A stretch of DNA of 64,000 nt from Sphingomonas sp. LY29 (GTDB lineage: Bacteria > Pseudomonadota > Alphaproteobacteria > Sphingomonadales > Sphingomonadaceae): positions 1,054,001-1,118,000 of the forward strand of contig NZ_CP141587.1 of the NCBI RefSeq assembly GCF_035593985.1, in the 5' to 3' direction. The position numbers and the translations under genes are program-made. This document shows, in pieces, positions 16,357 through 28,639 of the stretch (positions within the stretch are counted from its first letter, which is position 1; each line of letters starts with the position of its first letter). The notes beneath the pieces were generated by a model. The model made no database searches. It was not told where the DNA came from and was given only the letters and a program-made list of their open reading frames with translations.

Positions 16357-17397
16357 ATGCATTTTCTCGACCAGGCCAAGATCTTCATTCGCTCGGGCGC
16401 AGGCGGACCCGGCGCGGTCAGCTTTCGCCGCGAAAAGTATATCGAATATGGCGGACCCGACGGCGGCCAGGGCGGCAAGGGCGGCGACATCGTGTTCGAA
16501 GCCGTGCCCGGCCTCAACACGCTGATCGACTTCCGCTACACGCAGCACTTCCGCGCGCCCCGCGGCAAGGGCGGCGCCGGCAGCAACATGACCGGCGCGG
16601 GCGGCAAGGATCTGGTCATCAAGGTCCCGGTCGGCACGCAGATCCTCGCCGACGACGAAGAGCGTACGCTGCTCGCCGATTTCACCGAGGAAGGCCAGCG
16701 GATCCACTTCCTGAAGGGTGGCGACGGCGGCCGCGGCAACGCCAGCTACAAGACGTCGACCAACCGCTCCCCGCGTCAGCACGGCACCGGCTGGCCATCG
16801 GAGGAAATGTACGTCTGGCTGCGGCTCAAGCTGCTCGCCGACGTTGGCCTCGTCGGGCTTCCCAACGCGGGCAAGTCGACCTTCATCAACGCCGTGTCGA
16901 ACGCGGGCGCCAAGGTCGGTGCTTACGCCTTCACCACGCTCCGCCCGCAGCTCGGCGTCGTCAGCCACCAGGGCCGCGAGTTCGTGGTTGCCGATATCCC
17001 CGGCCTGATCGAAGGCGCCGCCGAGGGCGCCGGCATTGGCGATCGATTCCTTGGCCACATCGAACGCTGCCAGACGCTGCTTCATCTGGTCGATGCCAAT
17101 GACGAGGACGTGGCGACCAGCTACCGCATCGTCCGCGACGAGCTGCAGAATTACGGCGAAGGTCTCGCCGATAAGCCGGTCGTGGTCGCGCTCAACAAGG
17201 TCGACACGATCGACGAGGAATTGATCGCGGCGCTCTCGGCCGAGTTGGAAGAAGCCAGCGGCCACGAGGTCTTCGCGCTGAGCGCGGCGGGCGAGATCGG
17301 GCTCGAAGCCGTGCTCGACGCGCTGTCCGCGCAGATCGCCGAGAAGAAGGCCGAAGCAGCCGCCGAAGTCCCCGAAGGACCTTGGTCGCCGGTATGA
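16357..17397 (+). CDS. obgE: Obg GTPase (CgtA/ObgE)
   Basis: 346 residues. The glycine-rich Obg domain covers about residues 1-158 ([36 protein letters not shown]). The G domain follows with G1 [11 protein letters not shown]2 TTLRPQLG, G3 [10 protein letters not shown]4 NKVD and G5 SAAGEIG. It binds pre-50S particles and ppGpp and is usually essential. Its position downstream of rplU-rpmA is conserved in many bacteria. Here its stop overlaps the start of the cerR-like gene by four bases (ATGA), tying it translationally to the sphingolipid genes. Confidence 0.96.
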
Positions 17398-18302
17398 GGT
17401 TGGCGGTCACCGGCGCGACCGGGTTCGTCGGATCGCACCTGCTCGACCGCGCCCTCGCTGCCGGGCATCACGTCGCCGCGCTGACCCGGCGCTCCCAGCC
17501 TCCGCGAGAGCGCGTCACCTGGATCGACGGCGCGCTAGACGACACGCCCGCGCTCGCCCGCCTTGCCGAAGGAGCCGACGCGGCCATCCACGTCGCGGGC
17601 GTCCTCAATGCGCCTGACGAGGCCGGTTTCGACGCAGGCAACGTCGCCGGCACTGCCGCCATGCTCGACGCGGCCCGCAGCGCAGGCGTCGGACGCTTCG
17701 TCCACGTGAGTTCGCTCGCCGCGCGCGAGCCCGGCCTGTCGCTCTACGGCGCGAGCAAGGCGCGCTCGGAAAAACTCGTCGAAGCCGCGCCGCTGTCGAC
17801 CGCGATCGTTCGTCCGCCGGCAGTCTATGGTCCGGGCGACCGCGAGACGCTCGACCTGTTCCGGATGGCGAAGCGCGGCGTAGTGCTGCTGCCCCCCGCG
17901 GGTCGTCTATCGCTAATCCACGTCGACGATCTCGCCGACCTGCTCCTCGCCCTCGCCGACCCGGCTGCGCCGCACGAACTGCTGATCGAGCCCGACGACG
18001 GACGCGTTGGCGGTTGGACCCATCAGGAATTTGCCCAAGCGCTCTGTACCGCGGTCGGGCGGGCCAAGGTCGCGACCATCGCCGCGCCTAGCCCCCTCCT
18101 TCACTTCGCCGCGCGGATCGACAAGCTGCTTCGCGGCACCCGCGCCAAGCTCACCCCCGACCGCGCCGCTTACTTCAGCCACCCCGACTGGGTGGTCGAC
18201 GCCGCGCGCGCCGCGCCGGCCACCCTGTGGCGCGCAAAGGTCACGACCGCCGACGGACTCGCCGCCACCGCGCGCTGGTATCGAGAGGCCGGCTGGCTCT
18301 GA
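17394..18302 (+). CDS. cerR: NAD(P)-dependent epimerase/reductase, candidate ceramide-pathway reductase (CerR-like)
   Basis: 302 residues from ATG 17394, which overlaps the obgE stop. Extended-SDR features are [16 protein letters not shown] (nucleotide loop), [24 protein letters not shown] (YxxxK) and [11 protein letters not shown]. In Caulobacter a similar enzyme encoded beside spt and its ACP (CerR) reduces the 3-oxo group during ceramide formation. Here it is directly followed by an ACP gene and serine palmitoyltransferase. SDR identity is clear. The CerR assignment rests on family resemblance plus this neighbourhood. Confidence 0.75.
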
Positions 18303-18361
18303 CGCCTTGCCTTCGCCCCATTCGATTGCGAAAGCCGCCCCAAGCAGCCTAGGACGAAACC

Positions 18362-27370: not shown

Positions 27371-27499
27371 TTTCCCAAGATAGGAAGTCAGGACGCCCGA
27401 TTGAAGGCAGACTATGGCGCCTTCATGGCGCGTGCCGGGTAGCGCGGCCGGTCTGAACCCGCCGTGACAAGCCATTCCGCCCCCGCTAGCCCTGCGTGA

Positions 27500-28639
27500 A
27501 TGAGCAGTCCCCTCACCGTCCGCCAGATCGACTCGCGCGCCGACCGCAAGGCATTCGTCGACTTCGCGTGGGAAGTCTATCGCGACGATCCCGCCTGGGT
27601 TCCGCCACTTAAGGACGAGGTCCATGGCCTGCTCGACGCGAAGAAGAACCCGTGGTTCGGCCATGGCCGCGCCGCGCTGTTCCTGGCGGAGCGCGATGGC
27701 CGCATCGTCGGCCGGATCAGCGCGCAGGTCGACGATCTGGTGCAGGAGCATATGCAGGCCGGCACCGGCCAGTGGGGTATGTTCGAGGCGCTCGACGACG
27801 AGGCTGCGGCGGCCCTCATCGCGACCGCGGAGGACTGGCTTCGTGGGCAGCGCATGGTCCACGCGCTCGGCCCCATATCGATCAGCATTTGGGACGAGCC
27901 CGGCCTGTTGATCGAAGGCTTCGACCAATCGCCGATGGTGATGATGGGTCATCACCGCCCCGAATATCGCGCCTGGATCGAGGCCGCAGGCTACGCCAAG
28001 GCCAAGGACCTCCACACGTACGAGGTCGACATCCGCCCCGGCATGGCGCCGCTGATCGACCGGTTGATCCAGTCGGGCGAGCGCAATCCGCGAATCCGCA
28101 TTCGCCCGGTCGACAAGTCCAACTTCGATGCCGAAGCCGCGATCATCCTGCACTTGCTCAACGACGCCTGGTCCGAAAATTGGGGCTTCGTCCCGCTCAC
28201 CGACGCCGAGATCGCCTACGCCGGCAAGAAATTCCGGCCGATCATCTACGAGGACCTCGTCCGCATTGCCGAGGTGGACGGCGAGCCGGTCGCGTTCATG
28301 ATGACCATCCCCGACGTCAACGAGATGATCCGCGACTTGAACGGCAGCCTGTTCCCGTTCGGCTGGGCAAAGCTGTTGTGGCGCCTTCGACGCCCGCGCG
28401 TCGCGCGGGTCCGCGTGCCCCTGATGGGCGTCGCGAAGAAGCTCCACGGCACCCGCCTCGCAGGGCAGCTCGCCTTCATGCTGATCGAACATACCCGCCG
28501 CGCCTGCGTCGGCACTTATGGTGTCACGCACGGTGAGTTCGGCTGGATCCTCGAGGACAATCAGGGGATGATGTCGATTGCCGAGTTACCCGGCGCCAAG
28601 ATCAATCACACCTATCGAATCTTTGAGCGCGACCTCTAG
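27500..28639 (+). CDS. Bacterial ceramide synthase-like GNAT acyltransferase
   Basis: 379 residues in a long, soluble GNAT-related fold. The start has FVDFAWEVYRDDPAWVPPL, then NPWFGHGRAALFLAERDGRIVGRISA, the core GPISISIWDEPGLLIEGFD, MGHHRPEYRAWIEAAGYAKAKDL, and a C-terminal half with LNDAWSENWGFVPLT and AFMMTIPDVNE. This resembles the acyltransferase needed for ceramide formation in Caulobacter (bCerS, encoded near spt), often annotated simply as N-acetyltransferase. It would acylate the sphingoid amine. Its stop codon shares a CTAG with the convergent exonuclease III gene. Confidence 0.68.
   Translation: MSSPLTVRQIDSRADRKAFVDFAWEVYRDDPAWVPPLKDEVHGLLDAKKNPWFGHGRAALFLAERDGRIVGRISAQVDDLVQEHMQAGTGQWGMFEALDDEAAAALIATAEDWLRGQRMVHALGPISISIWDEPGLLIEGFDQSPMVMMGHHRPEYRAWIEAAGYAKAKDLHTYEVDIRPGMAPLIDRLIQSGERNPRIRIRPVDKSNFDAEAAIILHLLNDAWSENWGFVPLTDAEIAYAGKKFRPIIYEDLVRIAEVDGEPVAFMMTIPDVNEMIRDLNGSLFPFGWAKLLWRLRRPRVARVRVPLMGVAKKLHGTRLAGQLAFMLIEHTRRACVGTYGVTHGEFGWILEDNQGMMSIAELPGAKINHTYRIFERDL

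Follow-up and report, generated by a model that had tools for sequence, protein, structure and literature searches.

A ceramide gene locus of Sphingomonas sp. LY29 with a probably sphingolipid-dedicated LptFG permease

INTRODUCTION

Among the known systems closest to the locus studied here is the CC_1152-CC_1168 region of Caulobacter crescentus, where the LptG2/LptF2 pair (CC_1155/CC_1156) has been proposed to transport phosphosphingolipids (Olea-Ozuna et al. 2024, PMC11324152; this and the other papers given by PMC number are cited for individual passages). A passage of the same paper states that the route of bacterial sphingolipids to the outer membrane is unknown, and one in PMC11087976 that no flippases or lipid transporters for bacterial sphingolipids have been identified yet. 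In this work we describe a locus of ten genes in Sphingomonas sp. LY29. It lies in a stretch of 64,000 nucleotides, the window, which covers positions 1,054,001 to 1,118,000 of contig NZ_CP141587.1 (G000:C1:1054001-1118000), in a genome of 2.46 Mb that forms one contig. The locus brings genes for ceramide synthesis together with a pair of permease genes, lptF and lptG (lptFG), and we argue that this LptFG is probably dedicated to sphingolipids and feeds a shared LptD.

THE LOCUS

The ten genes were confirmed at window positions 17394-28639 by translation and domain searches, all of them where an earlier note on this DNA, the original prediction, had placed them. They are:

17394..18302, forward strand: cerR, CerR-like NAD(P)-dependent reductase, candidate ceramide reductase (Pfam Epimerase, 91.3 bits; Epimerase/SDR)
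18362..18607, forward strand: acp, dedicated acyl carrier protein (ACP), AcpR-like (PP-binding, 34.7 bits)
18609..19820, forward strand: spt, serine palmitoyltransferase (SPT; NF047603, 810.7 bits; 2x8u, 694.6 bits)
19859..21865, forward strand: hybrid histidine kinase (CHASE3, HATPase and receiver domains)
21822..22685, reverse strand: nucleotidyltransferase of predicted Tam41 fold, CC_1161-type, proposed CTP:ceramide-1-phosphate cytidylyltransferase (AlphaFold model Tam41-like)
22694..23758, reverse strand: DAGK-family lipid kinase, candidate ceramide kinase of CpgB type (DAGK_cat, 47.9 bits; NGGDGT in the translation)
23860..25071, forward strand: lptF, sphingolipid-linked group, only copy found in the genome (LptF_LptG, 195.2 bits; genome count; trees; E32-K33 marker)
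25068..26165, forward strand: lptG, sphingolipid-linked group, only copy found in the genome (LptF_LptG, 232.5 bits; genome count; tree)
26246..27370, reverse strand: membrane protein of the fatty acid desaturase/hydroxylase family, proposed ceramide acyl hydroxylase (FA_desaturase, 98 bits; its slot is taken by PF04116 hydroxylases elsewhere)
27500..28639, forward strand: bCerS-like GNAT-type acyltransferase, candidate ceramide synthase (Acetyltransf_1, E 0.0094, weak; recurs beside lptG)

The start of cerR shares 4 bases with the end of obgE. The open frame of the kinase extends to 23857 with a probable start at 23758, and lptF probably starts at 23860, both judged from the translations; the two genes are divergent, with about 100 bases separating these starts.

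LPTFG IN GENOMES WITHOUT LPXC

The genome holds one lptFG pair, and that pair is located in this locus. LpxC is the committed step of lipid A. It was found in none of the 147 Sphingomonadales genomes searched, this one included, with E. coli and Caulobacter as positive controls. In the same set lptFG is present in 138 genomes (exactly two hits in 122, between three and five in 15 and a single one in one), and SPT is present in 139, including 123 of the 124 genomes of good quality. LpxC-less species with one lptFG pair offer a natural experiment.

A search of the class found the nucleotidyltransferase in 42 of 385 genomes, 39 of which lie outside Sphingomonadales. Twenty-eight of these 39 were analysed, hand-picked mainly for long contigs, and 11 were left out; 12 LpxC-positive controls were hand-picked among the nucleotidyltransferase-negative genomes of that search. 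All ten genomes that have both LpxC and the nucleotidyltransferase carry four LptF/LptG hits, i.e. two pairs; by coordinates, each of them has one pair at most 6 kb from the nucleotidyltransferase, with the second elsewhere. One pair is found in 17 of the 18 nucleotidyltransferase-positive genomes outside the order that lack LpxC, and in all 12 controls (two hits each).

In the 18 Sphingomonadales stretches centred on lptFG (L281-L298), the pair always lies with spt and/or bCerS (L285 has spt, and bCerS is not shown there), and 17 of these stretches are without the nucleotidyltransferase. As lptFG stays with spt and/or bCerS when the headgroup genes are gone, this points to ceramide lipid in general, and not to a single phospho-headgroup, as the cargo.

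Five Sphingomonadales genomes (G003, G058, G064, G079 and G093) show four or five LptF/LptG hits and no LpxC, and in stretch L219 of genome G022 other frames occupy the position expected for lptFG.

LPTF AND LPTG TREES AND RESIDUE MARKERS

Trees were built for LptF and LptG from 74 loci: 26 from Sphingomonadales, 16 from other LpxC-less genomes, the ten nucleotidyltransferase-linked copies of LpxC-positive genomes, the two of G483 and 20 of lipopolysaccharide (LPS) type. They leave out L086, where only one Lpt frame was recovered, and G203, where lptFG lies outside the stretch; ten of the 12 controls gave rows. Each tree separates 54 sphingolipid-linked from 20 LPS-type rows with bootstrap/SH-aLRT support of 100/100. 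The split is present in 100% of 200 bootstrap trees, over a connecting branch of 1.22 (LptF) or 1.25 (LptG) changes per column, with some rows flagged for long end branches or odd composition. A quick LptF tree gives the same split, and the window pair falls in the sphingolipid-linked group. We reject the reading of this LptFG as an ordinary LPS pair, given its single copy, the missing LpxC and this placement.

The groups also differ in residues. An acidic then a basic residue occupy the positions equivalent to E. coli LptF 29-30 in 54/54 sphingolipid-type and 0/20 LPS-type rows (E32 and K33 in the window LptF, numbered on the aligned segment). Positions 40 and 41 of LptG are each basic in 18 of the 20 LPS-type rows, and in one and 12 of the 54 sphingolipid-type rows, respectively. 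In an LPS-bound structure, LptG K40 touches the 4′-phosphate and K41 the inner core (PMC6744409). E. coli cells with K40E/K41E grow (PMC5548808), and because of this tolerance we treat the lost LptG arginines as a marker and not as proof of specificity. LptG K34 and R136 are important in E. coli (PMC5548808, PMC6744409); these were rejected as a discriminator, since basic residues are missing there in LPS-type alphaproteobacterial rows as well.

LPTD AND LPTC

LptD is single in all 44 genomes tested, 26 of which lack LpxC. It directly adjoins LPS-type lptFG in 12 of the 18 LpxC-positive genomes, by coordinates, and in none of the 26 LpxC-negative ones is a listed lptFG hit found less than 10 kb away from it, a few extra lptFG hits being unlisted. 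In the genome of the window, lptD is at C1:98223-99323, with surA and pdxA as neighbours and no lptFG. This is the core of our argument: the outer-membrane translocon is retained without LpxC, and the sole extractor is sphingolipid-linked.

CONSERVATION OF THE NEIGHBOURHOOD

We placed the window proteins on 80 named loci around the nucleotidyltransferase and on 40 stretches from other genomes. Fifty of the 80 named Sphingomonadaceae loci were usable, with at least 6 kb of flank on the spt side and at least 7 kb on the lpt side. Within 8 kb, these 50 hold spt in 47, acp in 47, the kinase in 42, lptF and lptG in 42, bCerS in 34 and cerR in 12. The core of spt, nucleotidyltransferase, kinase, lptF and lptG is found together in 39 of them, in seven of eight loci of other Sphingomonadales families and in 16 of the 26 usable non-Sphingomonadales loci (of 28). 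The reductase lies beside acp-spt in 12/50 named and 19/26 non-Sphingomonadales loci. The linkage thus recurs across Alphaproteobacteria, though it is not universal. The window nucleotidyltransferase shares 97% identity with one from 'Sphingomonas sp. LY160'.

Other genes are seen in the neighbourhood of relatives. A DUF2141 (PF09912) gene lies near the lptF start in many of them, e.g. at L077:8625-8984, L087:8562-9005 and L281:7576-7962, and none was found in the window; its product is possibly an extra envelope part. L192, L215-L222, L085, L088, L096, L137 and L147 carry a Polysacc_synt-type gene in the cluster; they comprise 8/8 Sphingomonadales loci of other families and a few Sphingomonadaceae loci, and the gene product is a candidate sphingolipid flippase. 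One cluster of open reading frames, ELM1 (25 loci), was dropped as it includes antisense frames over spt and an AMP-binding gene; the other cluster counts were obtained by this single-linkage procedure on open frames as well and are rough.

A SEPARABLE HEADGROUP CASSETTE

In the window a ceramide-kinase-type and a CC_1161-type gene stand side by side, as judged by family, fold and position. The nucleotidyltransferase had no Pfam match at E up to 5 and nothing in NCBIfam, and a Pfam search with 15 members of its family, allowing E values up to 10, yielded four unrelated families, each hit by a single member (best E 0.076). Because these searches gave nothing, its identity was settled by fold, the AlphaFold model being Tam41-like.

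Six stretches (L281 from the same-genus genome G094, L282, L284, L286, L292 and L297) keep the order spt-(histidine kinase)-lptF-lptG-oxygenase-bCerS. The nucleotidyltransferase and the kinase are not in any of these stretches; L282 has no histidine kinase either, and G056, to which L297 belongs, encodes a divergent nucleotidyltransferase at another site. The gap between histidine kinase and lptF is about 634 bases in L281 against about 1995 in the window. The nucleotidyltransferase profile matches L296 and L219 and none of 19 other stretches (L279-L295, L297 and L298), and the kinase was found in L293-L296 and L219 among the same stretches. The kinase-nucleotidyltransferase pair is an optional, separable cassette.

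In four loci, L223-L226 from four genomes of one family, a divergent nucleotidyltransferase has only the kinase next to it, and this pair is apart from spt and lptFG.

CERAMIDE GENES, OXYGENASE SLOT AND HISTIDINE KINASE

The score of the window SPT compares with an NCBIfam cut-off of 670 for NF047603, and 2x8u is a solved SPT; on these matches its identity as an SPT of the proteobacterial type is certain. The candidates cerR, acp and bCerS, assigned by family and linkage, are all linked to spt. The acp is under the NCBIfam cut-offs for general ACP. For the bCerS-like protein, the GNAT match is sub-threshold and no solved relatives were found up to E 1; because nothing in NCBIfam or Pfam was above threshold, its name rests on the recurrent linkage to spt and lptG.

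The ortholog of the acyl-ACP synthetase AasR lies outside the window, at G000:C1:730032-731162 (L045). Of 31 synthetase queries linked to the cluster, 30 have it as their best match among the genome's eight AMP-binding loci, with 41-54% identity, far above the next locus. With it, the genome holds the AasR member of the five-gene ceramide pathway (aasR, cerR, acpR, spt and cerS). None of the other cluster families tested matched in its surroundings. Representatives of the CDP-alcohol transferase, NTP_transf_3 (CofC-like/CpgD) and phosphoesterase types gave no match in the window at E 1e-10.

The membrane oxygenase occupies a variable slot. In 88 of the 141 stretches searched, lptG and bCerS are at most 3.5 kb apart; between them lies an FA_desaturase-family gene in 51, an FA_hydroxylase-family gene (PF04116) in 28, both in none and neither in nine. 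L207, outside the 88, has both families at different places. That one family replaces the other suggests that they do the same job. CC_0202, of the DesA family, is reported to hydroxylate the amide-linked acyl chain in Caulobacter (cited in PMC11324152).

The histidine kinase at spt is a Sphingomonadaceae feature, with a match within 8 kb in 48 of the 50 named loci. Identity falls to 40-50% in many loci, therefore some of these matches may be other hybrid kinases.

Genes for serine, the substrate of SPT, are close to the cluster: serC, then serA (31168-33965), begin about 2.5 kb past bCerS, and a serC leader RNA (RF00517, 47.1 bits) at 31208-31260 overlaps the serC frame start. serC is near the locus in several close relatives too.

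Taken as a whole, these results partly support the original prediction. Its own refuting condition, that the kinase, nucleotidyltransferase and lptFG are not conserved next to spt, does not hold, as they recur there in Sphingomonadaceae, other Sphingomonadales and other alphaproteobacterial families; its Tam41-like assignment agrees with the AlphaFold model, and the synthetase that it had noted as missing from the window lies elsewhere in the genome. The correspondence that it drew to the Caulobacter ceramide genes holds as well, since this type of cluster is published there, Lpt genes included (PMC11324152). The headgroup pair recurs beside spt, and it is missing at the locus of one genome of the same genus in which the other genes stand in unchanged order. 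The histidine kinase is present in the locus, as a family-level feature. 'Self-contained' goes too far for a module whose acyl-ACP synthetase and lptD are elsewhere, with the three types named above unmatched in the window, and the 'desaturase' is more likely a hydroxylase, from the slot it shares with PF04116 and the Caulobacter report.

DISCUSSION

Gene content, linkage, copy numbers, the tree split and the predicted Tam41 fold are shown by the results above. We propose the following scheme, in which we infer the cargo, the reactions, the sharing of LptD, the role of the hydroxylase and all other functions from genomes. SPT with its own ACP, bCerS, CerR and the acyl hydroxylase would make ceramide. 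The kinase and the Tam41-type cytidylyltransferase would activate part of it, from ceramide to ceramide-1-phosphate to CDP-ceramide. The finished sphingolipid would be handed to the dedicated LptFG, extracted from the inner membrane and pushed over the remaining Lpt bridge to the one LptD. Where a species has no LPS, this LptFG would normally be the sole one, and sphingolipid would take the place of LPS on the bridge; relatives that do contain LPS would have a second LptFG, of LPS type, feeding the same LptD.

Several points weigh against this scheme. The LPS state was judged from LpxC alone, and the LptFG tree offers no more than three independent pairs that differ in it; each of them is consistent, and because there are only three, the sign test (p 0.25) cannot reach significance. 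Six Sphingomonadales genomes have SPT, no lptFG hit and no LpxC (G009, G022, G033, G037, G042, which belong to one family, and G045); their assemblies are fragmented, yet the absence recurs within one family. Conversely, five genomes have lptFG and no SPT hit at E 1e-150 (G014, G036, G040, G089 and G111), most of them incomplete or in many contigs. Fifteen LpxC-less Sphingomonadales genomes have three to five lptFG hits and one has a single hit. G483 lacks LpxC yet has two pairs, and the 20-kb stretch around either pair contains a bCerS-like match. All eight loci without kinase and lptFG near the nucleotidyltransferase are from Sphingobium. A CDP-alcohol transferase able to use CDP-ceramide was not found within the 64-kb window. 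Finally, the ten two-pair genomes show no doubling of LptC (PF06835): nine have one hit and one has none.

We had predicted that LptC would double along with LptFG, and with PF06835 this failed. Our guess is that this model may miss the LptC2 published for Caulobacter because of its divergence.

Could the single LptFG export something else, such as another anionic or glycan lipid that replaced LPS, with its place in a sphingolipid locus a matter of history? The cargo is read from genomes, and the genomes that have SPT without lptFG or the reverse would fit such a lipid. We consider it quite improbable all the same, as the extra pair of LpxC-positive genomes sits with the sphingolipid cluster in ten cases out of ten, SPT is nearly constant in good-quality Sphingomonadales genomes (123/124), and lptFG stays with spt and/or bCerS even where the headgroup genes are missing. 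A related question is whether the kinase and nucleotidyltransferase serve glycerophospholipids instead, as a diacylglycerol kinase and a Tam41-type CDP-diacylglycerol synthase. Tam41 itself is such a synthase (titles of 6ig4 and 6ig2), Caulobacter CpgB phosphorylates diacylglycerol in vitro (PMC10331486) and the pair is apart from spt in the four genomes of L223-L226. This, too, seems unlikely to us, if a little less so: the Caulobacter counterparts CC_1160 and CC_1161 are needed for ceramide phosphoglycerate (PMC11324152), the linkage to spt holds across families, and the nucleotidyltransferase is without a match in G005 and G012 (profile) and in the same-genus G094 (single sequence), therefore it is not a housekeeping CDP-diacylglycerol enzyme.

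That the genes are neighbours by chance has in its favour that the flanking obgE, xth and erpA are ordinary genes; the recurrence of one set within 8 kb in 39/50 named Sphingomonadaceae and 16/26 non-Sphingomonadales loci leaves this a negligible prospect, and we reject it. The histidine kinase is a closer call. It may regulate the module rather than being a bystander, since a match lies within 8 kb in nearly all named Sphingomonadaceae loci (48/50) and the gene is kept in five of the six loci, L282 being the exception, that have spt-lptFG without the headgroup pair. Against this, it is found in 0/8 loci of other Sphingomonadales families and 1/26 non-Sphingomonadales loci, its identity drops as described, and it has no known target, and we lean somewhat towards the bystander.

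Returning to a sphingolipid-dedicated LptFG, we would go further, with only slightly more confidence than doubt. An ancient sphingolipid-specific LptFG group may exist in Alphaproteobacteria, with two extractors for one LptD where both lipids are made. LpxC-less lineages (in our sample all 147 Sphingomonadales, plus ten further families of those examined) may have lost the LPS extractor and given the Lpt bridge over to sphingolipids. Because the phospho-headgroup cassette is optional, the extractor would recognise ceramide or its general form and not one headgroup, and the LptF dyad and lost LptG arginines would mark this specificity. If true, the Lpt machine would convey outer-membrane lipids in general, and exchangeable LptFG permeases would determine its cargo. 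For most of the groups sampled, the copy-number rule and the tree split point to a candidate extractor.

Our literature searches (sphingolipid Lpt system; CDP-ceramide with Tam41) returned only PMC11324152 on point for transport, in a coverage that mostly excludes subscription papers. The copy-number rule against LPS, the two-group split, the residue marker, the single LptD, the optional headgroup cassette and the oxygenase swap were not found in those searches.

COMPARISON WITH KNOWN SYSTEMS

That LptF2/LptG2 move sphingolipids was already proposed for Caulobacter, and the linkage itself is not new in kind. The Caulobacter region likewise has cerR, acp, spt, bCerS, a ceramide kinase, a CDP-diacylglycerol-synthase-like protein and a second LptF/LptG pair together (PMC11324152). 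The window differs in having its acyl-ACP synthetase elsewhere and no CDP-alcohol transferase, NTP_transf_3 or phosphoesterase type found in its 64 kb; it adds a histidine kinase and an FA_desaturase-family gene, and its lptFG is the only pair of an LpxC-less genome. These genes are described as scattered in S. wittichii and Z. mobilis in a passage of PMC11324152, whereas in the window they are mostly contiguous.

With the E. coli LPS exporter LptB2FG, the window shares the LptF and LptG families and their gene order. It differs in falling into a separate group in both trees, in having mostly lost the basic residues at LptG 40/41, in the acidic-basic pair at LptF 29/30 and in having no LpxC. 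The nucleotidyltransferase has its predicted Tam41 fold in common with the CDP-diacylglycerol synthase Tam41, and differs from it in sequence (16% identity in the alignment), in having no Pfam match and in its linkage to ceramide genes. The kinase, likened by family and position, resembles the Caulobacter ceramide kinase CpgB (PMC10331486) in its DAGK-type domain, its GGDG motif and its place adjoining a CC_1161-type gene.

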